DNA of 36,311 nucleotides, taken from contig JAJZCG010000019.1 in NCBI GenBank assembly GCA_021846225.1, forward strand, positions 1 through 36,311, read 5' to 3'. The translations under genes and the position numbers were made by a program. The notes below the pieces were generated by a model. The model had not been told where the DNA came from and made no database searches. It saw only the letters and a list, made by a program, of their open reading frames with translations. Of the stretch, positions 1,382-36,311 are shown in pieces (position 1 is the stretch's first letter; every line of letters starts with the position of its first letter). Source of the DNA: Pseudomonadota bacterium. GTDB lineage: Bacteria; Pseudomonadota; Alphaproteobacteria; Acetobacterales; Acetobacteraceae.

Positions 1382-1962
1382 TGATACGCCGCGCTTTTAT
1401 GTTGTTGGCCTGCCTGGCGCTGAGCGCCTGCCATCATAAGCTCTCGCCGCAGGATGTGAACGTCGCCGGGCTGGTGCCGGACCTCGCCTTCAATATGACC
1501 GATGTGAATACCGGCAAGGCCGTGAGCGCGGGGGATTTTAAGGGCGAGGTCACGCTGCTGTTCTTTGGCTATACCAACTGCCCGGATGAATGCCCGGCAA
1601 CCATGTATAACGCCGCGCGGGTGCTCAAGCAGATGGGCGACGGCGCCGCCAAGGTGCGGGTGCTGTTCGTCACCGTGGACCCGGACCGCGATACGCCCGC
1701 CGTGCTGGCGAAATATACCAGCCAGTTCGGCCCCGATTTCATCGGCCTGCGCGGCACCGCCGACCAGCTCTACGCCCTGGCGCGGCGCTACCGCGTGGTG
1801 TTCTCGGTCAGCAAAACGCCGGTCTATACCGTGACGCATTCCGCCGCTGTGTATGTGTTCAATGCCCGGGGCAAGCCGCAGTTCATCATTGCCGGGCTGG
1901 ATACCAAAACGCCCGATATCCAAGGCATTGCCGCTGATATCGCCGCTGTGGTGAAGCAGTAG
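1378..1962 (+). CDS. SCO1/SenC family copper chaperone, lipoprotein type
   Basis: A 194-residue Sco protein. The first 18 residues form a lipoprotein signal ending in LSAC, so Cys18 should be lipidated and the thioredoxin-like domain exposed in the periplasm. The copper ligands of the family are present: Cys68 and Cys72 in CPDEC and His154 in VTHSAAVYVF. The family motif DPDRDTP lies at 101-107. Sco proteins deliver copper to, or reduce, the CuA site of cytochrome c oxidase, but no oxidase gene is nearby. The start overlaps the rmuC stop by 4 nt. A second Sco gene at 23400-23951 carries a different export signal. Confidence 0.92.
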   Translation: MMIRRAFMLLACLALSACHHKLSPQDVNVAGLVPDLAFNMTDVNTGKAVSAGDFKGEVTLLFFGYTNCPDECPATMYNAARVLKQMGDGAAKVRVLFVTVDPDRDTPAVLAKYTSQFGPDFIGLRGTADQLYALARRYRVVFSVSKTPVYTVTHSAAVYVFNARGKPQFIIAGLDTKTPDIQGIAADIAAVVKQ

Positions 1963-1980
1963 CCCCCGCGGCGCGGGGGC
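1962..1980 (+). terminator. GC-rich hairpin directly at the sco1 stop codon
   Basis: GCCCCCGC (1962-1969) pairs perfectly with GCGGGGGC (1973-1980) across a 3-nt loop. The left arm begins at the last base of the TAG stop. There is no T tract, so this is a hairpin of terminator strength rather than a canonical intrinsic terminator. Confidence 0.45.
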
Positions 1981-2148
1981 TGGCGCGCGGCAGCCTCAAA
2001 CGATCAGACTCTTTGATAAGAGGCTGATTCACGCTTTCGTTTGTCCCGCTGGCGCGCGCCAACCTCAAACGATCAGGCTCTTTGATAAGAGGTTGATTCA
2101 CGCTTTCGTTTGTCCCGCTCACGCGGGCCAACCTCAAACGATCAGGCT

Positions 2149-2150
<2 letters not shown>
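1981..2150. repeat. Palindromic repeat locus 1: one half and two full B modules
   Basis: This fills the convergent gap between sco1 and the aminotransferase gene. A right half of module B (1981-2011) is followed by two complete B modules (2009-2080 and 2078-2150) that share the trinucleotide CTC. Each full copy has the small hairpin CTCTT-TGAT-AAGAG, then an outer stem GAGxCTGAT / ATCAGxCTC enclosing GATTCACGCTTTCG, a variable inner hairpin, and CTCAAACG. In the second copy the inner hairpin changes to CCCGC-TCAC-GCGGG. The last CTCTAG contains the TAG stop (minus strand) of the aminotransferase gene. The even open reading through the repeat is a by-product and not a gene. Confidence 0.9.
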
Positions 2151-3351
<1,201 letters not shown>

Positions 3352-3478
3352 GGCGCGGACATAGCCATGGGCCGCCGGGGGAGGCAAGCCAGGGGTGCGC
3401 GCGCTGAATTGCTTGAGGCGGGCCGCGGGGCTATGAGGCCAGCGCATCTTCCTGCAACCAGCAAAGCGGAGTGGAAAA

Positions 3479-4870
<1,392 letters not shown>

Positions 4871-4873
4871 GGG

Positions 4874-5596
4874 ATGAGCGGATATATCAGGCTCGGCGTT
4901 AACGTCGACCATGTGGCCACGCTGCGCAATGCGCGCGGCGGCGGCCACCCGGACCCGCTGAGCGTGGCGAAGGTCTGCGTCGCGGCGGGGGCGGATGGGA
5001 TTACGATTCATCTGCGCGAGGACCGCCGCCATATCCGCGATGCCGACGCGGAGGCGATTTGCGGCTGGGCCGCGGTGCCGGTGAATTTCGAGATGGCGGC
5101 GACGGCGGAGATGACCGCGATTGCGTGCAGGCTGCGCCCGCATGGGGTTTGCATCGTGCCCGAGCGCCGCGCCGAGATCACCACCGAGGGCGGGCTGGAT
5201 GTGGTTGGCCAGAGCGAGGCGCTGCGGCCGATCATCGCGCGGCTGACGGCGGCGGGGATTGTGGTGTCGCTGTTCGTGGACCCCGATCCGGCACAGGTGC
5301 GCGCGGCGGCCGGGGTTGGCGCCGCCGTGGTGGAGTTGCACACCGGCGCCTATGCCAATGGCCATCCCGGCGAGCTGGAGCGGCTGCGCGCCGCCGCCGT
5401 GCTGACCACGCAGCTGGGGCTGGAATGCCACGCCGGGCACGGGCTGACGTTTGCCAATGTCATGCCCATCGCCGAGCTGCCGGAAATCCGCGAGCTTAAC
5501 ATCGGGCATTTCCTGATGGGCGAGGCGCTGCTGACCGGCCTGCCCGTGGCGATTAAGGAAATGAAGCGGCTGATGGACGCGGCGCGGCCGGCTTAG
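4874..5596 (+). CDS. pdxJ: Pyridoxine 5'-phosphate synthase PdxJ
   Basis: PdxJ condenses 3-amino-2-oxopropyl phosphate with deoxyxylulose 5-phosphate to form pyridoxine 5'-phosphate, the last ring-closing step of DXP-dependent vitamin B6 synthesis. The 240-residue protein has the family start LGVNVDHVATLRNARGG, His46 in ITIHLREDRRHIRD, Glu73 in NFEMA and His189 in CHAGHGL. These match the catalytic His/Glu/His set of the TIM-barrel family. It lies 3 nt after lpd. Its TAG stop (5594-5596) coincides with the first bases of the adjacent palindromic module A. PLP made by this pathway is the cofactor of the aminotransferase and of GcvP in this window, though that is only a biochemical link. Confidence 0.95.
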   Translation: MSGYIRLGVNVDHVATLRNARGGGHPDPLSVAKVCVAAGADGITIHLREDRRHIRDADAEAICGWAAVPVNFEMAATAEMTAIACRLRPHGVCIVPERRAEITTEGGLDVVGQSEALRPIIARLTAAGIVVSLFVDPDPAQVRAAAGVGAAVVELHTGAYANGHPGELERLRAAAVLTTQLGLECHAGHGLTFANVMPIAELPEIRELNIGHFLMGEALLTGLPVAIKEMKRLMDAARPA

Positions 5597-5843
5597 AGCG
5601 CGATAGGTTTAGGTTGACGCAAGAGCGCACCCCGCCCGCGCTCTAACTCTTTGATAAGAGGCTGATTCACGCTTTCGGTTGCCACGTTGGCGCGCGTCAA
5701 CCTCAAACGATCAGACTCTAGATCGCGATAGGTTTGGGTTGACGCAAGAGCGTCTCCCGAACGCGATCTAACTCTTTGATAAGAGGCTGATTCACGCTTT
5801 CGGTTGCCACGCTGGCGCGCGTCAGCCTCAAACGATCAGACTC
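5595..5843. repeat. Palindromic repeat locus 2: two tandem A-B units (125-bp period)
   Basis: Two copies of the full composite lie between the convergent pdxJ and J-protein genes. Module A1 is 5595-5644, B1 5647-5718, A2 5720-5769 and B2 5772-5843. Module A is closed by AGAGCGCG/CGCGCTCT in A1 but AGATCGCG/CGCGATCT in A2, a paired change that keeps the stem. Both carry the internal segment GATAGGTTTRGGTTGACGC. Module B starts with the hairpin CTCTT-TGAT-AAGAG and has the GAGxCTGAT/ATCAGxCTC outer stem. The A1-to-A2 distance is 125 bp. Confidence 0.95.
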
Positions 5844-5858
5844 TAGCGCCGGATGACT

Positions 5859-6731
5859 TCAGATTGATCCGCCGCGCGGCTCGAAGTCCGGCTGGTCCCA
5901 GGATTGAAGGAAAGCTTCCAGTTTTTCATCGGCGGGGCCGATGACCACATGCAGTTTCACCAGCAGGTCGCCGGCGTGGTGGTGGCTGTGGGCGGGTACG
6001 CCACGGCCGCGCAGCCGCATTTCGGTGCCCGAGTCGCTATGGGGTTTTATGCTCAGCGCCACCGGGCCGGTGGGGGTCGGCAGGGTGATTTTGCCGCCCA
6101 GCACGGCCTCACGCAGGGAGATTGGCAGGTCCATGCGGATGTTCTGCCCCTCGCGGCGGAAGAATTTATGCGGGGCGACGGTGATTTCGATGAGTGCGTC
6201 GCCGGCCGGGCCGCCGTTGCGCCCTGGCTGGCCGCGCCCGCGCAGGCGCAGCACGTCGCCGCCGGTGGTGCCGTGGGGAATTTTCACATCCAGGGTTTGG
6301 CCGTCAGGCAAAGTGAGGCGCTTGGTGGCGCCGTTCACGGCCTCGAGGAAGTCGGCGGTGAGGGCGTAGCGGGCATCCTGGCCGCGGGCGGGGCCGGCGG
6401 GGCGGCCGCGCTGCTCGAACATGCTGGCGAAGATGTCCTCGAAATTGCCGCCGCCGAAGCCAGCGCCGCCGCCGGGGCCTTGGCGGAAGCCTGGGGGGGC
6501 GCGTTCGGCGCCGCTGGCGTCGATTTCGCCACGGTCATAACGGGCGCGTTTTTCGGGGTCGGAGAGCAGCTCGTTGGCCGCAGAGGCGCTTTTGAATGCC
6601 TCCTCCGCCGCCTTGTTGCCGGGGTTGAGGTCCGGGTGGTGTTTTTTCGCGAGTTTGCGGTAGGCCGCGCGAATTTGCTCGGGGGCCGCGTCCCGCGCGA
6701 CGCCGAGGATTTTATAGGGATCGTCTGACAT
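5859..6731 (-). CDS. CbpA-type (class B) J-domain co-chaperone
   Basis: A 290-residue Hsp40 protein. The N-terminal J domain (residues 5-70) has YRKLAKKHHPD with the essential HPD at 32-34. A Gly/Phe-rich linker follows (about 84-106), then two C-terminal beta domains (about 120-280) containing GGDVLRLRGRGQPG and GTEMRLRGRGVP. The four CxxCxGxG zinc repeats of DnaJ are absent, so this is a CbpA-like or DjlA-independent class B protein that would stimulate DnaK ATPase. Start 6731 gives MSDDPYKILGV; an in-frame ATG at 6740 is possible. A short hairpin CGGAT...ATCCG (5851-5872) spans the stop codon. No dnaK is in view. Confidence 0.9.
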   Translation of the reverse strand: MSDDPYKILGVARDAAPEQIRAAYRKLAKKHHPDLNPGNKAAEEAFKSASAANELLSDPEKRARYDRGEIDASGAERAPPGFRQGPGGGAGFGGGNFEDIFASMFEQRGRPAGPARGQDARYALTADFLEAVNGATKRLTLPDGQTLDVKIPHGTTGGDVLRLRGRGQPGRNGGPAGDALIEITVAPHKFFRREGQNIRMDLPISLREAVLGGKITLPTPTGPVALSIKPHSDSGTEMRLRGRGVPAHSHHHAGDLLVKLHVVIGPADEKLEAFLQSWDQPDFEPRGGSI

Positions 6732-6780
6732 GCGGATCATTTAGGGGCATTGCGCGGATTATAACAGGGTGCGCGCGCTT

Positions 6781-6842
6781 AGAGACGGATGACATTAGCG
6801 GGAATCGCAGAGCGATTACATCGAATGTCTGAATCCGCCTCT
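6781..6842. repeat. Nested palindrome, diverged module A of repeat locus 3
   Basis: A nearly complete dyad lies upstream of the J-protein start. AGAG-A-CGGAT (6781-6790) pairs with ATCCG-C-CTCT (6833-6842) with one mismatch; GACATT (6791-6796) pairs with AATGTC (6824-6829); AATCGC (6803-6808) pairs with GCGATT (6812-6817). Like the A modules elsewhere it starts TAGAG and ends CTCTAAC just before B modules, yet its stem sequence is different. Because it lies 5' of the J-protein gene it could also affect that gene's leader. Confidence 0.75.
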
Positions 6843-6856
6843 AACTTATAAGGGGA

Positions 6857-7051
6857 GAGGGCGATTCACGCTTTCGGCTCGCTCTGCTGAGCGAGCCTCA
6901 AACGATCGCGCTCAATATAAGGGTAGAGGGCGATTCACGCTTTCGGCTCGCTCTGCTGAGCGAGCCTCAAACGATCGCGCTCAATATAAGGGTAGAGGGC
7001 GATTCACGCTTTCGGCTCGCTCTGCTGAGCGAACCTCAAACGATCGCGCTC
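6857..7051. repeat. Three tandem B-type palindromes with 69-bp period (repeat locus 3)
   Basis: Copies occupy 6857-6913, 6926-6982 and 6995-7051, separated by an AT-rich 12-nt linker. Each keeps GATTCACGCTTTCG and CTCAAACGATC, but the outer stem is GAGxGCGAT/ATCGCxCTC and the inner hairpin is GGCTCGCT-CTGCTG-AGCGAGCC (8 bp). Both stems differ from loci 1, 2, 4 and 5 with paired changes. The third copy has one base change in the inner stem (GCGAACC). Its last CTC overlaps the TGA stop of the ABC ATPase gene. With the diverged A module this fills the 309-bp gap 6741-7049. Confidence 0.92.
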
Positions 7052-7847
7052 AATGGCGCAGTGTGCTGGAGAGGAACTGTTTGAAGCGCGGGGATTGCGG
7101 GTTGGTGAACATATCCTCGGGTTTGCCCTCCTCCTCGGTGAGGCCCTGGTGCAGGAACATCACGCGGCTGGCGACCTCGCGGGCGAAACCCATCTCATGC
7201 GTGACCACCAGCATGGTGCGGCCTTCCTTGGCCAGGTCGCGCATCACTTTCAGCACTTCGCCGACCAATTCGGGGTCAAGCGCGGAGGTTGGTTCGTCAA
7301 ACAGCAGCACATCGGGCTCCATGGCCAGGGCGCGGGCGATGGCGACGCGCTGCTGCTGCCCGCCGGAGAGCTGCGCCGGGTAGGCGTGGTGCTTGGCGGC
7401 GAGGCCGACCTTCTCGAGCATGGCCTCGGCCCGGGCGGCGGCGGCTTTTTTGTCCAGCTTCAGCACATGGATCGGCGCCTCCATGACGTTTTGCAGCACG
7501 GTCATATGCGCCCAGAGGTTGAATTGCTGGAACACCATGGCGAGGCGCGCGCGCAGGCGCTCCACCTGTTTGGGGTTGGCGGCGCTGCGGGCGTTTTTGC
7601 CCTCGCGCATCTCGATCAGCTCGCCTTTGATGCGCACGCGGCCCCGGTCGGGCGTTTCCAGCAGGTTGATGCAGCGCAAAAACGTGCTCTTGCCCGAGCC
7701 GGAGGCGCCGAGAATCGCGATTACATCCTGGTCATGGGCGGTGAGCGAGACGCCTTTCAGCACTTCGAGGGTGCCAAAGCGCTTGTGGATGTCCTCGACG
7801 GCGAGGGCGGGGGTGGGCGGAGCCGGCTCGGACATACTGAAAAACAC
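7050..7847 (-). CDS. Polar amino acid ABC transporter ATP-binding protein (HisP/GlnQ type)
   Basis: A 265-residue ATPase of the PAAT family (Arg/His/Gln-type importers). It has Walker [10 protein letters not shown] (47-55), Q-loop VFQQFNLW (105-112), signature LSGGQQQ (160-166), Walker [12 protein letters not shown] (181-191) and the switch His217 in VVTHEMGFA. The insertion around residues 76-96 (KGELIEM...NPKQ) resembles HisP. No permease or binding-protein gene is adjacent on either side, so it must act with subunits encoded elsewhere. Start at 7847 or at an in-frame Met at 7835. It is divergent from the glycine riboswitch and gcv operon, with 107 bp between this start and the aptamer. Confidence 0.92.
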
Positions 7848-7911
7848 CTTATATCTGAACGATTCATGACTGGGCTGCGGAATAACTTTGCAATAACGCC
7901 GGAATGCAGCT

Positions 7912-7942
7912 TTGCAAAACCCGTGCCCTGCGTCACTATGTA
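7912..7942 (+). promoter_or_regulatory. Possible sigma-70-type promoter for the gcv operon
   Basis: TTGCAA (7912-7917) and TATGTA (7937-7942) have a 19-nt spacer and lie just before the riboswitch, the expected place for the gcv promoter. The spacer is longer than ideal and the call rests on position and weak consensus only. Confidence 0.3.
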
Positions 7943-7954
7943 ATCGTCCTTATT

Positions 7955-8160
7955 CGGACGCAGGAGAGTGCGGGGGCCTTTGGGCTAGTTTCCCGCCGCC
8001 GAAGGCGCAACCGGCCCCCGGAAACGCTCAGGCAAAAGGGCTGCGTGGTTGAGCGGGACGCTCTGGAGAGCCGGTGGGTTTTGATGCCCGCCGCACCGAC
8101 GGGGTCAAGGGTTGAGGGTTGGCCCTTTGCCCGAATCTCTCAGGTTCCCAAACAGAGGGG
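7955..8160 (+). promoter_or_regulatory. Tandem glycine riboswitch
   Basis: Two aptamers of the glycine riboswitch class precede gcvT. Aptamer 1 is closed by ACGCAG (7958-7963) and CTGCGT (8041-8046), with the family's GGAGAGTG start and AACGCTCAGGCAAAAGG end. Aptamer 2 is closed by CTCTG (8061-8065) and CAGAG (8153-8157), with CTGGAGAGC and the ATCTCTCAGGT-CCCAAA end. A short linker joins them, as in the cooperative tandem form. In this class glycine binding usually turns on cleavage-system genes. A further perfect hairpin GCCCGGC/GCCGGGC (8170-8188) lies between aptamer 2 and the gcvT ribosome site and may be part of the expression platform; no T tract follows it, so control at translation start is more likely than termination. 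Confidence 0.93.
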
Positions 8161-8213
8161 GGTCAGTTTGCCCGGCACTTGGCCGGGCGCTGATTGGTTC
8201 TGGGGGAATTGCG

Positions 8214-9278
8214 TTGGAAACAGCATTGCTGAAAACACCATTGGATGCGCTGCACCGCCGCCTGGGCGCGCGCATGGTGGAATTTGCCGGGTATGAGATG
8301 CCCTTGCAGTATACGGGCATCATGGCCGAGCATCAGGCGTGCCGCGAAGGGGCGGCGCTGTTCGACGTCTCGCATATGGGCCAGGCGCATGTTGCCAATG
8401 CCAAGGCGTTCGAGGCGCTGGTGCCGGGCGATATTCTGGGGCTGCGGCCGGGACGCCAGCGCTATACGCTGCTGCTCAATGAGGCAGGCGGCATTATTGA
8501 TGACCTGATGGTGGCTAATTTTGGCGCGCATTTGCAACTGGTGCTCAACGCCGGGCGCAAGCATGTGGATCTGGCGCATATCCGGGCGCATGGCGTGGCG
8601 ATCACCCCGCATTTCGAGCGGGCGCTGCTGGCGTTGCAGGGGCCGAAGGCGGCGGCGATGCTGCCCGAGGGGGCGGCGCTGAGGTTCATGGATGCGGCGG
8701 CGCTGCACGTTGCGGGCATTGCCTGTGTTGTCACCCGCTCGGGCTATACCGGGGAGGATGGTTTCGAGATCGGCTGCGCGGCGGAGGATGCGCAGGCGCT
8801 GGCCGGTTTGTTGCTGGAGCGCGGCGCCACGCCTGCCGGGCTGGGGGCGCGTGACTCCCTGCGGCTGGAGGCGGGGCTTTGCTTGTATGGCAATGACATC
8901 GACGAGGGGCGCAACCCGGTTGAGGCGAATCTGGCGTGGGCGATTGCCAGGTGCCGCAGGAGTGATTGGGACTTTCTGGGCGCCGCCCCGGTGCGCGCGG
9001 CGCTGGAGGCCGGTCCGGCGGAGAAGCTCGTTGGTATCAAGGTGACCGGGCGCGCCCCGGCCCGCGCGGGGGCGGAGATCCGCAATGCGCGGGGCGAGCG
9101 CGTGGGCGCGGTCACCTCCGGTTGCTTCGCGCCGAGCCTGAACGCGCCGGTGGCGCTGGGCTATGTGCGGGCCGATTGCGCCGCTGAGGGCACCGCGCTT
9201 GACCTGATCGTCCGCGACAAGCCAATTCCCGGCGTTGTTGCGCCGCTTCCTTTTGTTCCTCATCGTTACGCCCGCTGA
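8214..9278 (+). CDS. gcvT: Glycine cleavage system T protein (aminomethyltransferase)
   Basis: GcvT takes the aminomethyl group from lipoylated GcvH and transfers its carbon to tetrahydrofolate, releasing ammonia. The protein has the family start LKTPLDALHRRLGARMVEFAG, then DVSHMGQ (51-57), the folate-site segment GGIIDDLMV (92-100) with its conserved Asp, LVLNAGRK, GYTGEDGFEI, and the C-terminal GxVTSGCFAPSL segment. No ATG fits: the frame is open upstream through the riboswitch, so a TTG start at 8214 was chosen (354 residues). A GGGGG ribosome site at 8202-8206 lies 7 nt before it. gcvH follows after 12 nt. Confidence 0.92.
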   Translation: METALLKTPLDALHRRLGARMVEFAGYEMPLQYTGIMAEHQACREGAALFDVSHMGQAHVANAKAFEALVPGDILGLRPGRQRYTLLLNEAGGIIDDLMVANFGAHLQLVLNAGRKHVDLAHIRAHGVAITPHFERALLALQGPKAAAMLPEGAALRFMDAAALHVAGIACVVTRSGYTGEDGFEIGCAAEDAQALAGLLLERGATPAGLGARDSLRLEAGLCLYGNDIDEGRNPVEANLAWAIARCRRSDWDFLGAAPVRAALEAGPAEKLVGIKVTGRAPARAGAEIRNARGERVGAVTSGCFAPSLNAPVALGYVRADCAAEGTALDLIVRDKPIPGVVAPLPFVPHRYAR

Positions 9279-9290
9279 AAGGTATTTTTC

Positions 9291-9667
9291 ATGACCCAGA
9301 TTTTTTATTCCAAGGACCACGAGTGGGTGCAGATTGGCGAGGACGGCCTTGCCACCATTGGTATTACGGACCATGCGCAGCAGGCGCTGGGCGATATCGT
9401 GTTCGTTGAGCTGCCCGAGCCGGGGCGCAATGTTGTGGCGCATGAAGCCTGCGCCGTGGTGGAGAGCGTGAAGGCCGCCTCCGATGTTTACGCGCCGCTG
9501 ACCGGCACCGTGAGCGAGACCAACCAGGCCATCGTGGACGAGCCGGCGCTGATCAACACCGCGGCCGAGACCACGGCCTGGTTTTTCCGCATGCGCCTGG
9601 AGGACCCCACCGCGGTGAACGCGCTGATGAGCAAGGCCGCCTACGATGAATTTTTAGGGAGCCTGTA

Positions 9668-9668
<1 letters not shown>
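9291..9668 (+). CDS. gcvH: Glycine cleavage system H protein (lipoyl carrier)
   Basis: A 125-residue carrier that shuttles the aminomethyl intermediate between GcvP, GcvT and dihydrolipoyl dehydrogenase on a lipoyl arm. The lipoylated lysine is Lys61 in [14 protein letters not shown]. The upstream strand [21 protein letters not shown] and the downstream C-terminal [10 protein letters not shown] are typical. Length is normal. Its TAA stop overlaps the gcvP ATG (TAATG at 9666-9670), indicating tight coupling of H and P synthesis. It lies 12 nt after gcvT, under the glycine riboswitch. Confidence 0.97.
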
Positions 9669-12538
<2,870 letters not shown>

Positions 12539-12671
12539 AAATTCATCAACGTGACCTAAAAAACCACTTGCGCCCGGGGGGGTATGGCCTCATAAGCCGC
12601 CCCTCTTGGCCCAGGGGGGCGCGGCGTGGTGCTGCGTTCTACAGGCTGTCTACTAGTTGAGGGGGTTCGAA

Positions 12672-13124
12672 ATGAACGCACTTGCCCGACTGGGGATGGT
12701 CTCGGAGTCTCCGAGCGAAAACCAGACGACAACGGTCTCCGTGGAGCCGGCTAAAGACTATTTCGTGGAACGCGCCGGCATCAAATATGCCGGGATGCAT
12801 TTGTTGATCGACCTTTGGGGCGCGTCGAATCTCGACAGCCCGGAGCTGATTGACAAAACCCTGTGCGCCGGGGCGATTGAAGCTGGCGCCACCATATTGC
12901 ACCACCATTTCCACCACTTCACCCCCAATGGTGGCGTGAGCGGCGTGGTTGTGCTCGCGGAGAGCCATATCTCCATCCATACCTGGCCGGAACGCAACTT
13001 CGCGGCGCTGGATGTGTTCATGTGCGGCGTCTGCGACCCGTACAAGGTGATCCCGTTCCTGCGCGAGGCTTTCAAGCCGACGCATGTGCAGGTTAACGAA
13101 CAGAAACGCGGCCTGATCGCGTAA
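12672..13124 (+). CDS. speD: S-adenosylmethionine decarboxylase proenzyme, class 1B
   Basis: SpeD decarboxylates SAM to give the aminopropyl donor for spermidine synthesis. The proenzyme cleaves itself to make its pyruvoyl cofactor: the site is Glu97-Ser98 in LAESHISIHTWPE, and His103 and Cys118 match the family's processing and proton-donor residues. At 150 residues it is slightly longer than the compact bacterial/archaeal class 1B enzymes because of about 25 extra N-terminal residues. The ATG at 12672 has a GAGGGGG ribosome site 6 nt upstream. The 133-bp leader after gcvP has no recognised riboswitch. speE follows, but a terminator separates the two. Confidence 0.94.
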   Translation: MNALARLGMVSESPSENQTTTVSVEPAKDYFVERAGIKYAGMHLLIDLWGASNLDSPELIDKTLCAGAIEAGATILHHHFHHFTPNGGVSGVVVLAESHISIHTWPERNFAALDVFMCGVCDPYKVIPFLREAFKPTHVQVNEQKRGLIA

Positions 13125-13133
13125 ATGGGTGGG

Positions 13134-13152
13134 CGAGGGGCTGCGCCCCTCG
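13134..13152 (+). other. Perfect 8-bp hairpin after speD
   Basis: CGAGGGGC (13134-13141) pairs with GCCCCTCG (13145-13152) across a TGC loop, 10 nt after the speD stop. No T tract follows. It lies just upstream of the stronger terminator and may protect the 3' end of the speD message. Confidence 0.5.
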
Positions 13153-13176
13153 TGACCTGCGTGAGGTTTTGAACCC

Positions 13177-13203
13177 CGGGGAGCGCAAGCTCCCCGATTT
13201 TTC
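13177..13203 (+). terminator. Intrinsic terminator between speD and speE
   Basis: CGGGGAGC (13177-13184) and GCTCCCCG (13189-13196) form a perfect 8-bp stem with a GCAA tetraloop, followed by ATTTTT (13197-13202). This is the clearest rho-independent terminator in the window. It lies 32 nt before the speE ATG, inside the region that an upstream-extended speE start would translate, which argues for the ATG at 13235. Confidence 0.85.
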
Positions 13204-13234
13204 TGCTGACCGATGCGATGAGGAATATTTCCAG

Positions 13235-14098
13235 ATGACCGATACCTGGTTGAATGAGACCCTTTACCCGGACTGGGGCCAGCGCTTCCGCTTCGTGCGC
13301 CAGCTGGCGCGCGTGCAGAGCGCGTTTCAGGACATTGCGGTGTTCGAGACCGAGAGCCACGGCCGCGTGCTGACGCTCGACGGCGTGATCCAGATCACCG
13401 AGCGCGATGAGTTCGTGTATCAGGAGATGCTGACGCATGTGCCGCTGCTGGCGCATGGCAATGCGAAGAACGTGCTGATCATCGGCGCGGGCGATGGCGG
13501 CGTGCTGAAACACGTACTGATGCACAAGGGCGTTGAGCGCGCTGTGATGGCCGAGATCGACGGCGAGGTGATCCGCCTCTCCAAGGAGTTTCTGCCCGGT
13601 ATTGGCGGGGATGCCTGGAATGATCCGCGCGCCGAGGTGATTGTGGGCGATGGCATCGACTATGTGAAGCGCGCGCCGGATGCGGCGTTTGATGTGATCA
13701 TCGTCGACTCCACCGACCCGATCGGCGTGGGCGAGGTGCTGTTCACCGACGAATTCTACCAGAACGCGGCGCGGATTCTGAGCGCGAGCGGGTTGATCGT
13801 GAACCAGTGCGGCGTGCCGTTCATGCAGGCCGACGAGCTGCGCGAGACCTCCGCCCGCCGGGCGCAGTTTTTCCCGCATGTGACCGCTTATGTCGCCGCG
13901 GTGCCGACCTATGTGGGCGGCTATATGACGCTGGGCTGGGCGGGGAAGGATGCGGCGCTGACGCAGATTTCCCCCGAGGTGATCGCCCAGCGGGCCGAGG
14001 CCGCGGGCATTGCGGGCAAGAGCGAGTACTGGACGCCGCATGTGCATGTGGCGGCATTCTGGCTGCCGCCGTATATCGCGCGGCATCTGCCGGCCTGA
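13235..14098 (+). CDS. speE: Polyamine aminopropyltransferase (spermidine synthase)
   Basis: SpeE transfers the aminopropyl group of decarboxylated SAM to putrescine. The 287-residue protein has the family N-terminal beta domain with LTLDGVIQITERDEFVYQEML, the nucleotide-binding IIGAGDGGVLKHVL (GAGDGG at 84-89), the acidic AEID strand end, GDGIDYV, and the catalytic DSTDP with Asp158. C-terminal VPTYVGG is also typical. The ATG at 13235 was chosen over an in-frame TTG at 13169 because the latter would translate through a terminator hairpin and has no family similarity. Together with speD this gives the SAM-dependent route to spermidine; a putrescine source is not encoded in the window. Confidence 0.95.
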   Translation: MTDTWLNETLYPDWGQRFRFVRQLARVQSAFQDIAVFETESHGRVLTLDGVIQITERDEFVYQEMLTHVPLLAHGNAKNVLIIGAGDGGVLKHVLMHKGVERAVMAEIDGEVIRLSKEFLPGIGGDAWNDPRAEVIVGDGIDYVKRAPDAAFDVIIVDSTDPIGVGEVLFTDEFYQNAARILSASGLIVNQCGVPFMQADELRETSARRAQFFPHVTAYVAAVPTYVGGYMTLGWAGKDAALTQISPEVIAQRAEAAGIAGKSEYWTPHVHVAAFWLPPYIARHLPA

Positions 14099-14116
14099 GG
14101 TAAGAAGCCAGCAAGG

Positions 14117-14152
14117 CGGCCCGGTATGTCATGATGATGTGCCGGGCCGTTT
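14117..14152 (+). terminator. Probable speE terminator
   Basis: CGGCCCGG (14117-14124) pairs with CCGGGCCG (14142-14149) with a 17-nt loop, followed by a short TTT run, starting 19 nt after the speE stop. The large loop and short T tract make it a moderate candidate. Confidence 0.5.
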
Positions 14153-14167
14153 GCGGTTCGGGGGGGT

Positions 14168-14291
14168 AGATCGCGATAGGTTTGGTTTGACGCACGAGCG
14201 CCCCCCGAACGCGATCTAACTCTTTGATAAGAGGCTGATTCACGCTTTCGGTTGCCCCGCTGGCGCGCGGCAGCCTCAAACGATCAGGCTC
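14168..14291. repeat. Palindromic repeat locus 4: single A-B unit
   Basis: Module A (14168-14217) is closed by AGATCGCG/CGCGATCT. Module B (14220-14291) starts with CTCTT-TGAT-AAGAG, has the CTGAT/ATCAG outer stem, and an inner hairpin built on GGTTGCCCCGC and GCGCGGCAGCC. It fills the gap between convergent speE and the flavodoxin-type reductase gene. The terminal CTCTAG includes the TAG stop (minus strand, 14291-14293) of that reductase. Confidence 0.93.
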
Positions 14292-14782
14292 TAGAAAATT
14301 CCCATCGCGAGCCCCGCGCCCAGCGAGGCGCCAAGCTCCCGGCAGCGCGCCAGCTCCGTGGCGGCGATGGTTTTGGGCGCCAGTATGGCCTCGGGCGTTT
14401 GCGCATGGGTGCAGATGATCAACGGGTTTGCGACCGCTTTCAGCCGCCAGCCGGTGGCGATGCGCTCAATCTGGCGCGCGGCGTTCTGGCCGTCACTGCC
14501 GGCACAGATCAGCGTGGCGTAAGGGCGGGCGTTGATGCGCTCCAGCGCCGGGTAATAGCAGCGGTCAAAGAAATCTTTCATGATGCCGGACATGGCGGCG
14601 AGGTTCTCGGGTGTGGCGAAGATGTAGCCGTCCGCCGCCAGGACGTCTTGCGGCATGGTTTGCGCCGCTGTTTGCAGCCGCACGTGCAAATGCGCCCCGG
14701 CCTGCGCCCCGGCGGCGGCGGCCTGCGCCATCTGCCGGGTGCCGCCGGTGAGGGAGTGGAAGACGATCAGCAGGGTTTTCAT
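14291..14782 (-). CDS. Flavodoxin-family NAD(P)H-dependent oxidoreductase
   Basis: A 163-residue protein with the flavodoxin-like fold. The N-terminal strand and phosphate-binding loop read LLIVFHSLTGGTRQMA (residues 4-19), where HSLTGGT corresponds to the FMN phosphate loop. GYIFATPENLAAMSGIMKDFFDR (split here as ATPENLAAMSG and KDFFDR) is the typical isoalloxazine-contact loop of NADPH-dependent FMN reductases. ICAGSDGQ marks the next strand end. It starts 3 nt after the stop of the HlyD-like gene and is probably the last gene of the efflux operon. The context suggests a quinone or aromatic-compound reductase role, but that is inference only. Confidence 0.8.
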   Translation of the reverse strand: MKTLLIVFHSLTGGTRQMAQAAAAGAQAGAHLHVRLQTAAQTMPQDVLAADGYIFATPENLAAMSGIMKDFFDRCYYPALERINARPYATLICAGSDGQNAARQIERIATGWRLKAVANPLIICTHAQTPEAILAPKTIAATELARCRELGASLGAGLAMGIF

Positions 14783-15883: not shown

Positions 15884-17871
15884 CCCGCCAGCGCGGGCGG
15901 CGGCGCGGGGGCGAAGAGTACGCTGCGCAGTCCCGATAGCATCATCAGCGCCTCCTTGTGCACATGGGTATCAAAAGCCGCCGCGTAAGTCGCCTCATCA
16001 ATGGCTGTGAGCAGGCCGGGCGGCGGCGGGGCGAGGGGGTTGGCGCGGTAGTGGGCGGCGACACCCTCCAGCACGGCGGCGCATTGCGCCTGCGCCTGCG
16101 GGGAGAGGGTGGACATGCAGCGTTGCAGGCCGATCACGTTCAGCCCCACGCGCAGGTCTTGCAGCACGTCGGCGGCGGCGATGTCCGTTCCGGCGGGGAT
16201 GGAAGCCAGCCTTGGCACCAGCAGGCCGAAGCGGTCCAGCATGCGCCCGCTGAGCACCGCGGGGTCGCCCGGCTCTTTGGCTCCGGCGGCGGCGGCGATG
16301 TCGCGCCAGCCGGCCTTGATGACCCGCCGCGCGCTCCAGGCCGCGCCCACGGAGCGGATGAGCCGGGTGACCACCAGAGCGGAGGTGATGCCGATGAGCA
16401 AGGCGGCGGTGTTGTTGAGGTAGGTGGCGAAATTGCCGGAATAGGTGTTGTCCAGCGCCAGATTGGTAGAGCCGATGGCGCCCAGCAGCATGCCGGTGCC
16501 AAAGGTGGCCGGGCGGGAGACGAGGATGCCGATGATGAGCCCGGCGGGCAGCAGCACCAGCGCCAGCTCGGCGAAGGTTTCCATGCGCGGCAGCACCAGG
16601 AAGGTGTAGAAGCCTGAGCCGAGTGTCGCGATGACCGCGTTGCGGCTCATCAGGGCGATGGCGGGGGCGGGGTCGTCCTGTGCGGCGAAGAACGAGCCGG
16701 CGACGGCGACCATCACGGCGGCGCCGGCACCGGCGGGCCAGGCGGTGACGATCCAGACCGCGCAGACCAGCAAAATCGCCAATGCGGTGGAGAGGGCGGA
16801 GAAGAGCGCCAGCCCGTGGTCGCGCAGCTGCGCCGCCACGGCGATGAATTCCGCCTTTATCACGGCGCTTTGCGGCGCCACGTCGCCATCGAAGACATGG
16901 CGGCGGATGGCGCGCTCGTGATGGATGATGCTCACCAGCTCGCTCAGCCGCATGGCGAGGCTGGCGCGCAGCAGCCCGGTCCAGGAGAGATCGCTATCCT
17001 CCAGGGCGCGGATCTGGCCGTGCAGGGCGCCGGCATCTTCCGGCCCGCCGATCTGCATCCAGACGGCCGTGGCGTCGAGCGTTTTTTGCAGTGCCGGGGT
17101 GATGCCGCCGTGGCGGCGCAGCTGGGCCACGCGGTCGCCGATGGAGCTGAGCACCGGCATCATGCTCAGCATGTAGATCCGCAGCTGGGTGATGTAGGGC
17201 ACGGCGGATTGCAGGTTTGAGGTATCGTAGGCGAGCTGTGTCGTCATCATCGCCACGTCGGTTGCTTCCATGGCGAGCTTGCGCCGCGCGGCGTGCACCT
17301 CCGGGGCGTCGCAACGGCCCTCCAGTGCAGCCGTTGCCCACTCGATGCCCGGACGCACCCAGCCGGCGACGCGCCGGGCCAGCACAGGCCCCAGCCCGCG
17401 CGGAAAGAAGACAGTGCCGGCCACCGTGGTGCAGGCGATGCCGATGTAGATTTCCTCGACGCGGGTGAGGGCGGTCTGGAAGATGAGCCCGGGGGCGGCG
17501 ACGCTGGGAAAGCCGATGATCCCGGCCGTGTAGCCCGCCAGCATGAACATATAGGCGCGCGGGGTGCGGTCCAGCAGGGAGAGGTAGAGGCAGAAGCCGA
17601 CCCAGAGCGCCATCGCCAGGCTGGCCAGCAGCGGCGCGTTGACCAGATTGGGGATGATGGCCACGGCGGCGGTGGCGCCGACCAGCGTGCCGATGAAACG
17701 GTAGACGGCCTTGGAGCGCATGGCCCCGGTGAGCGGCTGCGCCACGATGAAGGCGGTCGCCATCGCCCAATAGGGATTCTCCAGCCCCAGCCACAGCGAA
17801 ATCCACAGCGCCGTCATCGCGCCGGCGAAGGTTTTCAGCGCAAAGAGTAATTCGTCAGTCTTGGGCATCAT
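15868..17871 (-). CDS. FUSC-family aromatic acid efflux pump (AaeB-like)
   Basis: A 667-residue inner-membrane protein of the FUSC family. It has two sets of hydrophobic helices, an N-terminal set (about 12-165) containing FAGAMTALWISLWLGLENPY and a middle set (about 350-500), each followed by a soluble region; this doubled layout is normal for AaeB. The N-terminal region also has GTLVGATAAVAIIPNL and AGYTAGIIGFPS. It heads the operon FUSC-DUF1656-HlyD-flavodoxin reductase, which would export aromatic carboxylic acids or related amphiphiles. A degraded copy of part of this gene lies at 31296-31449. Start at 17871 or the next Met at 17868. Confidence 0.92.
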   Translation of the reverse strand: MMPKTDELLFALKTFAGAMTALWISLWLGLENPYWAMATAFIVAQPLTGAMRSKAVYRFIGTLVGATAAVAIIPNLVNAPLLASLAMALWVGFCLYLSLLDRTPRAYMFMLAGYTAGIIGFPSVAAPGLIFQTALTRVEEIYIGIACTTVAGTVFFPRGLGPVLARRVAGWVRPGIEWATAALEGRCDAPEVHAARRKLAMEATDVAMMTTQLAYDTSNLQSAVPYITQLRIYMLSMMPVLSSIGDRVAQLRRHGGITPALQKTLDATAVWMQIGGPEDAGALHGQIRALEDSDLSWTGLLRASLAMRLSELVSIIHHERAIRRHVFDGDVAPQSAVIKAEFIAVAAQLRDHGLALFSALSTALAILLVCAVWIVTAWPAGAGAAVMVAVAGSFFAAQDDPAPAIALMSRNAVIATLGSGFYTFLVLPRMETFAELALVLLPAGLIIGILVSRPATFGTGMLLGAIGSTNLALDNTYSGNFATYLNNTAALLIGITSALVVTRLIRSVGAAWSARRVIKAGWRDIAAAAGAKEPGDPAVLSGRMLDRFGLLVPRLASIPAGTDIAAADVLQDLRVGLNVIGLQRCMSTLSPQAQAQCAAVLEGVAAHYRANPLAPPPPGLLTAIDEATYAAAFDTHVHKEALMMLSGLRSVLFAPAPPPALAGWTSP

Positions 17872-31233: not shown

Positions 31234-31295
31234 GCCATTGTGCTCTGGCCTGTCTGCTTGATGTCCATGAAAATGGATTCGAAATGACTTTTTCG

Positions 31296-31449
31296 TGGCG
31301 AGCTTGCGCCGCGCGGCGTGTACCACAGGGGCGTCGCAACGGCCCTCCAGCGCCGCCGTTGCTCACGCAATGCAGACGCACCTAGCCGGCGGCGGCGCTG
31401 GGAAAGCCGATGATCCCGGCCGTGTAGCCCGTCAGCGTGAACGTGTAGA
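31296..31449 (-). pseudogene. Decayed fragment of a FUSC efflux pump gene
   Basis: This stretch matches the FUSC gene at 17271-17554 in two blocks. Bases 31296 to about 31393 align with 17271 to about 17370, and about 31390-31449 align with about 17493-17554; roughly 120 bp between the blocks is missing. The minus strand still reads GYTAGIIGFPSAAAG, matching GYTAGIIGFPSVAAPG of the pump, then a stop; further on a different frame reads ATAALEGRCDAP and VHAARRKLA. With the internal deletion, stop codon and frame change it cannot be functional. It is probably derived from this pump gene or a close paralogue. A matching piece of the pump gene's upstream region lies at 31636-31678, beyond a repeat insertion. 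Confidence 0.85.
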
Positions 31450-31637
31450 GTCTGATCGTTTGAGGTTGACGCGCGCCAGCGTGGCAACCGAAAGCGTGAA
31501 TCAGCCTCTTATCAAAGCGTCTGATCGTTTGAGGTTGACGCGCGCCAGCGTGGCAACCGAAAGCGTGAATCAGCCTCTTATCAAAGAGTTGGAGCGCGGG
31601 CGGGGGCGCTCTTGCGTCAACCCAAACCTATCGCGCT
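31448..31637. repeat. Palindromic repeat locus 5: A-B-B in reverse orientation
   Basis: Read on the minus strand the order is A (31637-31593), B (31588-31518), B (31517-31448). Module A has AGCGCG/CGCGCT arms and GATAGGTTTGGGTTGACGC inside. Each B has TCTGATCG-TTTGAGG, the inner hairpin GGTTGACGCGC-GCCA-GCGTGGCAACC (10 of 11 pairs) written here as two arms, and AGCGTGAATCAG. The block lies between the FUSC fragment and a copy of the FUSC upstream hairpin, with TAG at both outer edges. It sits in the convergent gap between the TRIC channel and PAAR genes. Confidence 0.93.
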
Positions 31638-31644
31638 AGGCGCT

Positions 31645-31674: not shown

Positions 31675-31968
31675 TCATCCGCCGATCAGTACTGTGAAAC
31701 AACCTAATACGATCGAGCCGCCATGGGCGCAGGAATCCCCCATGCGCGCGGCGGGGCGGCCGCCGATGAGGACGGTCGCGGAGCCTTTGATGATGGAATC
31801 CGGCGGGCCGGCGCAGGTGACGACATCGCCGAGGCAGGCGGCGGGCAGGCCGCCGATGAGGACGGTGGGGGCGCCTGGCGCGGTGATGGGACCGCCGACA
31901 TGCGGCACCAGCACAGTCACCATCGGGCAGACGTGCATGTCAGTGAGGCGGGCTGCGGGAAAGGCCAT
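31675..31968 (-). CDS. PAAR-domain protein (type VI secretion spike tip type)
   Basis: A 97-residue protein that is a PAAR domain without extension. It starts MAFPAARLTDMHVCP with HVCP and a later VPHVGGPI giving zinc ligands. The PAAR repeats PTVLIGGLPAACLGD, ATVLIGGRPAARMGDSCAHGG and CFTVLIGG follow in regular spacing. PAAR proteins sharpen the VgrG spike and can carry effectors; this one has no fused effector and there are no vgrG, hcp or tss genes in the window. It is divergent from tpsB. A perfect 15-bp palindrome overlaps its start codon. The stop lies within a duplicated stretch related to the cysQ-FUSC spacer. Confidence 0.9.
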   Translation of the reverse strand: MAFPAARLTDMHVCPMVTVLVPHVGGPITAPGAPTVLIGGLPAACLGDVVTCAGPPDSIIKGSATVLIGGRPAARMGDSCAHGGSIVLGCFTVLIGG

Positions 31969-33915: not shown

Positions 33916-36311
33916 ATGGAACGCAAAACATGGCGGCTGGCAGGGGCTGGGGCGAACGGGCGCATTGCCCGCGCGGCGTGGCTGGCGACAACGGCGCTAA
34001 CGGCGATCTTGATGAGCCCGGGCGCGTTGCGGGCGCAATCCGCACTGCCACCCACCACCACCCCGCAAGGCGGCGTGGTGGTGGGCGGCAGCGCCACCAT
34101 CACGCAGGGCGCCGCCAGCACCACGATCAATCAGAGCAGCCAGCTCACCGCGATCAACTGGCGGAGCTTCAACGTGGGCAGCGCGGCGTCGGTGCAGTTC
34201 AACCAGCCCTCCTCCAGCGCGATTGCGCTGAACCGGGTGGTAACGCCCGAACCTTCGGTGATCGCGGGGAAGATCAATGCCAACGGGCAGATCGTGCTGG
34301 TCAATCAGTCCGGGGTGGTGTTCACCAAAGGCGCGCAGGTGAATGCGGAGAGCATCGTCGTCTCGACCTCCAATGTCGCGACCAAGGATTTCATGGCTGG
34401 AAAACTGGTGTTTTCCGGGGCGCCGAATCCTGGGGCCAAAATCATCAATAACGGGGCGTTGACCGCGCGCCAGGCCGGGCTTGTGGGGTTGGTGGCGCCG
34501 CAGGTCGCCAATAACGGGGTGATCACGGCGCAGCTTGGGCGGGTGGTGCTGGCCGGGGCGAGCGCGTTCACGCTCGATTTGTACGGTGACCGGCTGGTCT
34601 CGCTGGATGTGACCCAGGCGGTGCGCGCGGTGGATGTGGGCGGTAAGCTGGTGCCGGCGCTGGTGACCAACAGCGGGCTGATTCTGGCCGATGGCGGCAA
34701 GGTTACGCTTACGGCGCGGGATGCCGATGCGCTGGTGACGCAGCTGATCAACGCGGGCGGCACCATCCGCGCGAATACCGTGGGGGCGAACACGGGGACG
34801 ATTTCCATCCAGGGCGTGGGCGGAGATATTCAGATCGCCGGAAATCTGCTGGCGCAAGGGACGCAGGCCGGAAGCAAGGGCGGCGCGGTGGAGGCGTTGA
34901 CAACGGGCACGGTGAGCGTGGCGCCGGGGGCGGTGATCAACGCCGCGGGCGATGCGGGCGGCGGCGTGGTGGCGTTGGGCACGAATTTGCAGCGCGCCGC
35001 GGCCGGGGCGGCTGATACAGCGGCGCCGCGCGCGGCGGCGGTGGTGGTCGCGGCCGGCGCGGTGGTGAAGGCCGATGCCACGGGCAGCGGCAATGGCGGC
35101 AGGGTGACGCTGCTGAGTTCGCGGGCGACGAATTTTGCCGGGGCGATTTCCGCGCAAGGCGGCCCGCAAGGCGGCAATGGCGGGATGGTCGAGATCTCCA
35201 GCGACGGGGTGATTTCCTTGGGCGGCACGGTGGTTGATACCGCGCTCAATGGCCAGCCGGGGGAGATATTGCTCGACCCGCAGACGCTGATCGTGAGCAG
35301 TTCGGGAACCAGCAGCGGGCAGACGAGCTATATCGATCCGGCTTCGCTGGTCAGCCTGACCGGGTCCGTCACGTTAAGCGCGGCCAAGCTGGTGGATGTG
35401 GTCAGCGCGGTCAACCTGACTGGAGCCTCGGTTCTGACGTTGAGTTCCGGCGGTGACGTGACCATCGGCGCATCGATCGACACTGTTGGCTCCCTGGAGA
35501 TTGATGCGGGTGGGACGCTGTTGGTAGGGGCTGGGCTGACGGCCGGGAGCATCGCGCTGTTGGACACCGGCGCCAAGACCTTGATTGACATCGGCGCGCC
35601 GGTTGTGGGGACAACGCTGGTGGCATTGGAGAGCGGCGGCGGCATCAGCGAAATCGCGGGCGGCGTTATCTCGACGGCTTCGCTGGTGAGCGGCGCGGCG
35701 AATAGCGGCAACGACATGCTGGGCGGAGCAAACAGCGTAACAACGCTGGGCGCGTTCACCCTGGGTGGTGCCGGGACGCTGACCTTTGCCGATGCCGGAG
35801 CGCTGAATGTGGCGGGTACGGTGAGCGCGGCGGATGTGATTCTGGAGAGCAGCGGCGCGGTGAGCGAGGTGAGTGGCGGCGCGCTGAACGTGGGGACGCT
35901 GAGCAGCGGCGGCACCACGATTGGTGGTGCGGTGTCGCTGGGGAATGGCAACAATATCGGCACGCTGGAGGCGTTCGCGGCGGCGGGGACTATTCTGCTG
36001 GACGACAGTGGCGCGCTGAATATCGCCGGTGTGGTGCAGACGCCGGGGTTGTTGACGTTGCAGGATGGCGGCGGCATCAGCGAGGTGAGTGGCGGCGCGC
36101 TGAATGTGGGGACGCTGAGCAGCGGCGGCGCCACGATCAGTGGTGCGGTGTCGCTGGGGAATGGCAACAATATCGGCACGCTGGGGGCGTTCGCGGCGGC
36201 GGGAAATATTCTGCTGGATGACAGTGGCGCGCTGAATATCGCCGGTGTGGTGCAGACGCCGGGGCAATTCACGCTGCGGGATGGCGGGACGGTGAGCGAG
36301 GTGAGTGGTGG
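33916..36311 (+). CDS. Two-partner secretion exoprotein TpsA (filamentous haemagglutinin N-terminal domain), runs off right edge
   Basis: An open frame runs from ATG 33916 (GAGAGG 5 nt upstream) to the window edge, at least 798 residues. Residues 1-41 form a long signal (Trp-anchored, hydrophobic LATTALTAILM, cleaved near LRA-Q). Residues about 42-230 match the TPS secretion domain: STTINQSSQLTAINWRSFNV, PSVIAGKINANGQIVLVNQ, NQSGVVFTKGAQVNAESIVV. After a linker with beta-helix-like repeats, 72-residue repeats begin at residue 579 and continue through the edge. The partner TpsB gene is 63 bp upstream, so TpsB should export this protein as an adhesin or related surface fibre. The C-terminal functional part is not in the window. 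Confidence 0.93.
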   Translation, partial: MERKTWRLAGAGANGRIARAAWLATTALTAILMSPGALRAQSALPPTTTPQGGVVVGGSATITQGAASTTINQSSQLTAINWRSFNVGSAASVQFNQPSSSAIALNRVVTPEPSVIAGKINANGQIVLVNQSGVVFTKGAQVNAESIVVSTSNVATKDFMAGKLVFSGAPNPGAKIINNGALTARQAGLVGLVAPQVANNGVITAQLGRVVLAGASAFTLDLYGDRLVSLDVTQAVRAVDVGGKLVPALVTNSGLILADGGKVTLTARDADALVTQLINAGGTIRANTVGANTGTISIQGVGGDIQIAGNLLAQGTQAGSKGGAVEALTTGTVSVAPGAVINAAGDAGGGVVALGTNLQRAAAGAADTAAPRAAAVVVAAGAVVKADATGSGNGGRVTLLSSRATNFAGAISAQGGPQGGNGGMVEISSDGVISLGGTVVDTALNGQPGEILLDPQTLIVSSSGTSSGQTSYIDPASLVSLTGSVTLSAAKLVDVVSAVNLTGASVLTLSSGGDVTIGASIDTVGSLEIDAGGTLLVGAGLTAGSIALLDTGAKTLIDIGAPVVGTTLVALESGGGISEIAGGVISTASLVSGAANSGNDMLGGANSVTTLGAFTLGGAGTLTFADAGALNVAGTVSAADVILESSGAVSEVSGGALNVGTLSSGGTTIGGAVSLGNGNNIGTLEAFAAAGTILLDDSGALNIAGVVQTPGLLTLQDGGGISEVSGGALNVGTLSSGGATISGAVSLGNGNNIGTLGAFAAAGNILLDDSGALNIAGVVQTPGQFTLRDGGTVSEVSG
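35650..36311 (+). repeat. 216-bp in-frame tandem repeats in the TpsA gene
   Basis: Units start at 35650, 35866, 36082 and 36298, exactly 216 bp (72 codons) apart. The first unit is diverged but has the same length. Units two and three are near-identical (about nine bases in ten) and encode SGGALNVGTLSSGG, SLGNGNNIGTL and LDDSGALNIAGVVQTPG. The fourth begins 14 bases before the window edge, so the array continues. Confidence 0.95.

Follow-up and report, generated by a model that had tools for sequence, protein, structure and literature searches.

The palindromic repeats analysed here are, judged from their sequences and insertion sites, small non-autonomous mobile elements spread through the genome of a bacterium that we take to be an Acidocella species, and very probably they are MITEs that a transposase of the IS630 family (Tc1/mariner type) mobilises in trans. 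Their membership of the IS630-type MITEs is well supported because three observations converge: TA is duplicated at the insertion site, the element ends match those of an IS630 subgroup in register, and a member of that subgroup is present in the same genome. The match of ends suggests how a repeat family that has been puzzling for about 20 years may move, and why it would carry a methylation site.

The window (the whole stretch of DNA that was analysed, 36,311 nucleotides) belongs to an assembly of 2.69 Mb in 123 contigs. All five loci for which an earlier note on this DNA had reported repeats and pairing do contain them (Table 1). The same note took all five to be one two-part element of modules A and B, which holds for three of them, whereas 1979-2149 has no A and the locus at 6782 has another left arm. 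Its borders were right within a few bases, the element that it placed at 5595-5843 being 5596-5843 between two TA dinucleotides, and the A stem swap from AGAGCGCG/CGCGCTCT to AGATCGCG/CGCGATCT is as it described. In our reading, the left arm has diverged in the A module of the window and exists as a second subtype at 6782, where it resembles the right IS end of genome G572 (TAGAGCGGGATGAATTTAGG).

Table 1. Palindromic elements of the window and their parts (positions in the window; R1, covariance model of B)
Feature	Position	Strand	Details
Truncated B and two B, no A module	1979..2149	+	R1
TA target-site copy, left	5594..5595		First two bases of the pdxJ TAG stop (5594-5596); PdxJ by Pfam
A arm (left arm)	5596..5643	+	Outer end GAGCGCGATAGGTTTAGGTTGACGC
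B arm 1	5657..5718	+	Outer end GAGTCTGATCGTTTGAGGTTGACGC (inward from the 3' side); R1 match 5655-5721, 73.1 bits
Second A arm	5721..5768	+	
B arm 2	5782..5843	+	R1 match 5780-5846, 73.5 bits
TA target-site copy, right	5844..5845		
Left arm, GGATGACAT subtype	6782..6841	+	TA 6780-6781
Three tandem B arms, 69-nt period	6854..7054	+	R1 matches 6854-6916, 6923-6985, 6992-7054
A-B element	14169..14291	+	Between TA 14167-14168 and TA 14292-14293
A-B-B element	31448..31636	-	Between TA 31446-31447 and TA 31637-31638

As is usual for MITEs, the elements are short, dispersed and free of any internal transposase gene: an A-B element is about 123 nt long, and tandem copies make longer ones. Exact matches to the B core, GATTCACGCTTTCG...CTCAAACGATC, number 97 in the genome, far more than chance would give, and the reversed-pattern control has 0. 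The genome-wide covariance-model search that the earlier note had called for gave 147 B matches in 2.69 Mb (150 candidates scored). At relaxed stringency, 141 B cores fall into 70 clusters in the stretches of the host genome taken out for study; 41 of these clusters contain two or more cores, which in one of them run in opposite orientation. One B core (G000:C20:19288-19351, locus L027) has a 15-nt internal duplication and measures 64 nt, compared with 49.

Comparison with related genomes shows how the elements sit in their target sites. Both flanks were present in a relative for 18 of the 70 clusters, and in 12 of those 18 they lie at most 40 nt apart, leaving the site near-empty. The target-site duplication typical of MITEs is seen cleanly at five of the 12 near-empty sites (L209, L238, L241, L246 and window 5595), with one TA in the relative and a TA at both ends of the element; for example, CCT-TA-AACG in the relative corresponds to CCT-TA-[125 nt]-TA-AACG in the host genome. 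A sixth site (L258) is clean except for one base, TA having become CA at one end, and at the remaining six the ends are eroded, truncated or ambiguous. Within the window, the site of 5595-5843 is empty in G680 (GGGTT-TA-GAGACGG) and holds another arm in G687, and the element at 1979-2149 is missing from the same site in G687 and G692. The site of 6781-7051 is filled in G680, G687 and G685, with differing linkers or copy numbers, and is without an element in G692. Tandem copies of linker and B would arise later and locally, perhaps by slippage between ACTCT repeats.

The host genome also contains a candidate autonomous partner, the transposase gene with matching ends that the earlier note had proposed to look for. 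The only full-length IS630 element seen there, on contig C47 at 24-1075 (G000, locus L345), reads in two frames and has ends that begin TAGAGTCT; a fragment lies on C109. The IS630 identity is supported by NF033545 (149.6 bits) and DDE_3 (117 bits). Using the protein of its second frame as query, we found relatives in 53 of 385 genomes of the class: 8 of the 18 with R1 matches, and 45 of the 367 others, some of which may hold elements, as 13 candidates were scored per genome (p = 0.0011, genome size and relatedness uncontrolled). With the host genome excluded, the former count is 7 of 17 (p = 0.0037). The other 10 R1-positive genomes gave no subgroup match at E <= 1e-20; there, the IS630 subgroup may have been lost, have diverged or be unassembled.

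The palindromes and this IS630 subgroup of Alphaproteobacteria share TA-GAG at positions 1-5 and a G-A-x-T/G-C block near 23-27. Since TAGAG was the search key for the IS ends (23 left and 25 right ends from 29 loci, the others being cut by a contig end or not found), the score test was restricted to positions 6-28. The position profile was made from IS630 ends (n = 44) in genomes that lack an R1 match. On it, 41 palindrome ends from 18 genomes score +8.06 in register (mean of genome means) and at most -2.6 when shifted by any other amount between -8 and +8. The score is -15.2 for the inner ends of these arms and -15.7 (sd 7.3) for 344 unrelated TAGAG sites, and the best end in each of the 18 genomes outscores at least 98.8% of these sites; the IS ends, which were not left out of their own profile, score 15.9. 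The TAGAG control omitted 37 of 381 sites that contain element-like words. When these are restored its mean is -15.1 and 14 of the 381 score 0 or more, and the highest of the omitted ones look like elements. By this in-register score, the terminal repeats are like IS630 ends.

Pairing the palindromes with IS ends from the same genome is better than shuffled pairing across seven genomes (fraction 0.012); across the rows of the seven-genome matrix, a genome's own IS comes first only twice (G706, and G543 as a tie), and most rows are fitted better by the IS of G706. Full-length alignments of arms to IS ends are mostly at chance level (p < 0.02 in 2 of 36, one of them out of register), so the claim of parentage rests on the terminal 28 nt. 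In G543 (L360, 207-208), the right end of an IS630 element abuts another TAGAG element, with the same TA common to both.

B forms a 66-nt hairpin made of an outer stem, a 3-nt insertion (TCA), CG/CG, a 1-nt bulge and TTT/AAA, followed by a small internal loop and an inner stem of variable sequence. Compensatory changes over genomes of many families, assessed with controls, strongly support the conserved folding that the earlier note had inferred. In a first set of 47 copies across genera, hand-picked from 136 distinct copies and with a core invariant since the search pattern fixed it, 16 of 27 pairs changed on both sides; the covariation score was 0.321, compared with 0.129 (sd 0.008) after shuffling and 0.075 or less in slid versions. 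A second set of 63 distinct matches from the class-wide search loci, host genome included, was fitted to the model and is 91.2% paired, with both-sided change in 23 of 27 pairs and a score of 0.485 against 0.130. It includes 13 second matches that fall on the other strand of arms already represented; the 50 distinct rows left without them are 91.1% paired, again with 23 of 27 pairs changed on both sides.

Inverted pairs of R1 arms, with a linker of about 8-12 nt, occur in 10 of the 18 R1-positive genomes, and the loci examined in the remaining ones hold single arms only. Their scheme is TAGAGxxxGATC...GTGAATCxxxCTCTA, linker, TAGAGxxxGATTCAC...GATCxxxCTCTA. The outer side of an arm carries GATC, replaced in a few arms by GGTC or GACC, and the inner side carries GTGAATC/GATTCAC. 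Fifteen such pairs, of 117-141 nt, were collected from the 10 genomes; both arms were found by R1, several genomes contribute two related copies, and of the near-identical tandem pairs at L150 the first alone was taken. The full-form element consists of two IS-like ends, each followed by its near-complement, and can form two hairpin arms with a short linker. The fixed 3-nt insertion in the inner strand (GTGAATC opposite GATC) would shift the register, so that the inner ends would no longer resemble transposon ends and the whole element alone would move, the transposase binding the outer strand of each arm. The lowest-energy RNA folds predicted for two inverted pairs are cloverleaves with outer-outer and inner-inner pairing, in which the 3-nt insertion is fully paired; the A-B element of the window is predicted to fold as two separate arms.

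Pairing may be kept since the conserved outer strand is a transposon end, or it may be kept by repair of the palindrome, that is, by template switching or gene conversion and not by selection. Such repair yields both-sided changes without any selection and is compatible with the MITE reading; as the source of the pairing, we consider it somewhat unlikely. Repair should erase imperfection, yet TCA is kept in 53 of 66 aligned matches, the other 13 being opposite-strand matches to these arms, of which 11 show TGA on the facing side. The full pairing of the insertion in the predicted cloverleaves weakens this argument from imperfection.

Elements of this kind extend well beyond the host genome. 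R1 matches occur in at least 18 of the 385 genomes of the class (13 candidates scored per genome) and in 6 of 60 genomes of a family sample around a Brevundimonas subvibrioides genome. Among the matches listed, the exact core is found in Acidocella, Sphingomonas, Allosphingosinicella, Brevundimonas and Filomicrobium, as well as in a Caulobacteraceae and a Hyphomicrobiaceae bacterium. An exact-core search of a 299-genome family sample, which included six other genomes of the same genus and missed the element-rich ones, found it in the host genome alone (1 of 299). For a distant arm from G305, the sole matches were four replicons of Azospirillum oryzae. Carriage on plasmids or phages was rejected, as window 5595-5843 had no match among 72,556 plasmid and 50,697 phage records.

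The neighbourhood of the elements is strongly biased. Using gene calls from our own codon model, 62 element-bearing gaps with genes on both sides comprise 45 convergent, 16 codirectional and 1 divergent, compared with 9, 80 and 60 for the remaining gaps in these stretches that measure 60 nt or more (n = 149; odds ratio for convergent gaps 41, p = 7e-23). The outer end of B points toward the upstream stop in 13 of the 16 codirectional gaps, and in 26 of the 70 clusters a neighbour's stop codon coincides with the B end (distance 6), formed by TA and the first G of the element (TAG). The elements provide the stop codon of many adjoining genes. In the window, the 3' end of the 1979-2149 element is the TAG stop (CTA 2149-2151) of an aminotransferase gene at 2149-3447 (-), and the 14169-14291 element gives the stop of a gene at 14291-14782 (-).

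Such positions, together with the strong covariation and stable predicted folds (z of -14.8, -10.3 and -3.3 for three example elements), could also be expected of a host-selected 3'-UTR RNA element that acts as a bidirectional terminator or stabilises mRNA ends and was spread or retained for its folded RNA. We regard this as improbable. Sister species differ in presence or absence at the same site, and the IS630-like ends account for the conserved outer strand. A scan for hairpins with a T-run in window 1801-14500 found nine sites, none inside the four elements there, and a terminator pattern was rejected on this basis. The elements of the window have no Rfam match; a known RNA family was likewise rejected, the sole match at gathering score in the window being a glycine riboswitch elsewhere. 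Convergent bias is known for pneumococcal RUP, BOX, SPRITE and IS elements, for which the available part of PMC3049150 reads it as a parasitic mark. For MITEs of the IS630 type, a survival filter on TA-targeted insertion explains the gap bias without a host function: elements would survive mainly behind stop codons or between convergent genes, where such insertion would be least harmful.

Scarcely credible, by comparison, are REP/BIME or REPIN elements moved by a REP-associated tyrosine (Y1 HUH) transposase, the 'REP-type' option of the earlier note: modular palindromes, inverted pairs, extragenic location and high copy number would all agree, but Y1_Tnp has no match in the host genome (97.8% complete) and no association across the class (3 of 18 R1-positive versus 69 of 367 other genomes, p = 1), TA is duplicated at the insertion sites, and the arms, of about 48-66 nt with TAGAG ends, have no GTAG or CGTC tag. 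REP transposition is not known to involve target duplication. In the accessible portion of PMC3733652, a REP is a palindrome of 20-40 bp tagged by GTAG or CGTC, and CGTC-tagged REPs are missing in Acetobacteraceae. With neither a linked Y1 transposase nor a tagged palindrome of REP size, we rejected this origin; the note's 'MITE-type' option is borne out by the TA duplication at empty sites and the IS630-like ends.

The IS630-type elements carry a further feature at their ends, the CcrM site GANTC. It stands at positions 23-27 in 30 of 30 left IS ends and in 0 of 33 right ends, with N being A in 23, G in 4, T in 2 and C in 1, and the other four bases invariant. Thirteen of the 15 inverted pairs have GANTC at 23-27 in exactly one arm, two in neither and none in both (binomial 0.003 if the arms are independent, uncorrected for shared ancestry), so that most pairs combine one left-type and one right-type end. 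The A-B form of the window has GATTC at the inner 3-nt insertion, and GAATC at 23-27 is found in the 6782 arm only. CcrM is described as conserved in most Alphaproteobacteria (available part of PMC3973325). In other bacteria, the methylation state of Dam sites gates the transposition of IS10 and IS50. It is a tentative but real possibility that GANTC is built into the left end of the IS630 subgroup and into one MITE arm, gating transposition by replication-linked methylation. Against such gating, 23 of the 30 left ends share GAATC, so that part of the conservation may come from transposase binding alone, and the A-B form of the window lacks GANTC at 23-27.

The architecture fits that of the Caulobacter CcrM-associated intergenic repeats (CIR; Chen and Shapiro 2003, via PMC2229807), which are compared here through their description in the accessible part of that review. 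Like the present elements, they are alphaproteobacterial and intergenic, measure about 110 bp, consist of two inverted-repeat arms and a linker, and have TA termini; our 15 pairs of 117-141 nt and the A-B element are of comparable size and build. In CIR, one arm exposes GANTC in its loop or close to it. In the present elements, one arm has GANTC at 23-27 in 13 of the 15 inverted pairs, and the A-B form of the window has GATTC at the inner insertion. In the portion of that 2007 review available, the target-site duplication of CIR is given as unknown and their mobility mechanism as needing more information, whereas TA duplication and IS630-like ends were found in the present elements, and the Acidocella A-B form differs by its diverged left arm and tandem B copies.

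RUP of Streptococcus pneumoniae, associated with IS630-Spn1, is likewise a TA-targeting MITE with IS630-like ends of the same genome; it is 107 bp long and, as here, enriched between convergent genes (PMC2229807 and PMC3049150, each available in part). The ends of RUP pair with each other, whereas here each end is also matched by a mirror half of its own, so that two arms form. The Correia/NEMIS elements of Neisseria are also MITEs with TA termini, a target-site duplication and folded transcripts (accessible part of PMC2229807), but their stem is an end-to-end pairing, and sequence and hosts differ. RIME and ABC mosaic elements of rhizobia and Bru-RS of Brucella, palindromic intergenic repeats of Alphaproteobacteria, are likened here by mention only, from sources available in part.

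CIR-type repeats have been described since 2003, and the literature searched, which leaves most subscription papers outside, gives neither a mover for them nor a reason for the methylation site, and contains no link between CIR and IS630; the word IS630 is absent from the available part of a 2024 MITE review (PMC10969869). As far as this search goes, four points are new: the derivation from IS630, the duplication of TA, the asymmetry of GANTC between left and right ends, and the inner insertion that breaks the register. The tie to IS630 offers a mover, exact ends and a target rule for this class of palindromes, and allows methylation control to be tested directly in bacteria with a CcrM cell cycle; GANTC gating, if true, would explain the GANTC of CIR elements. 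TA-GAG ends and two arms with a 3-nt insertion give annotators a search key.

Several other features were observed alongside the elements. A small PAAR-motif protein (PF05488; window 31675-31923, -) adjoins the element at 31448-31636. Window 17266-17554 and 31291-31448 share two pairs of stretches, 88% and 92% alike, the second copy of which ends at the 31448 element and may be a decayed gene fragment. A protein with a two-partner-secretion domain (PF05860) is encoded at window 33916-36309 (+), with 216-nt tandem repeats that reach the contig end, and a glycine riboswitch aptamer (RF00504, 59.7 bits) lies at 7951-8053 (+), ahead of a gene at 8241-9278. Another long palindromic repeat, of the CAAGGCCAAGGGGC...GCCCCTTGGCCTTGC type (L267, about 1700-1990; L270, about 3640-3870), sits at the same intergenic sites in other Acidocella genomes, and a third, short palindrome, ATACCAGTCAGCCTTAAGGCTGACTGGTAT, was seen at two orthologous sites (L265, 1-120; L266, about 2050-2100).
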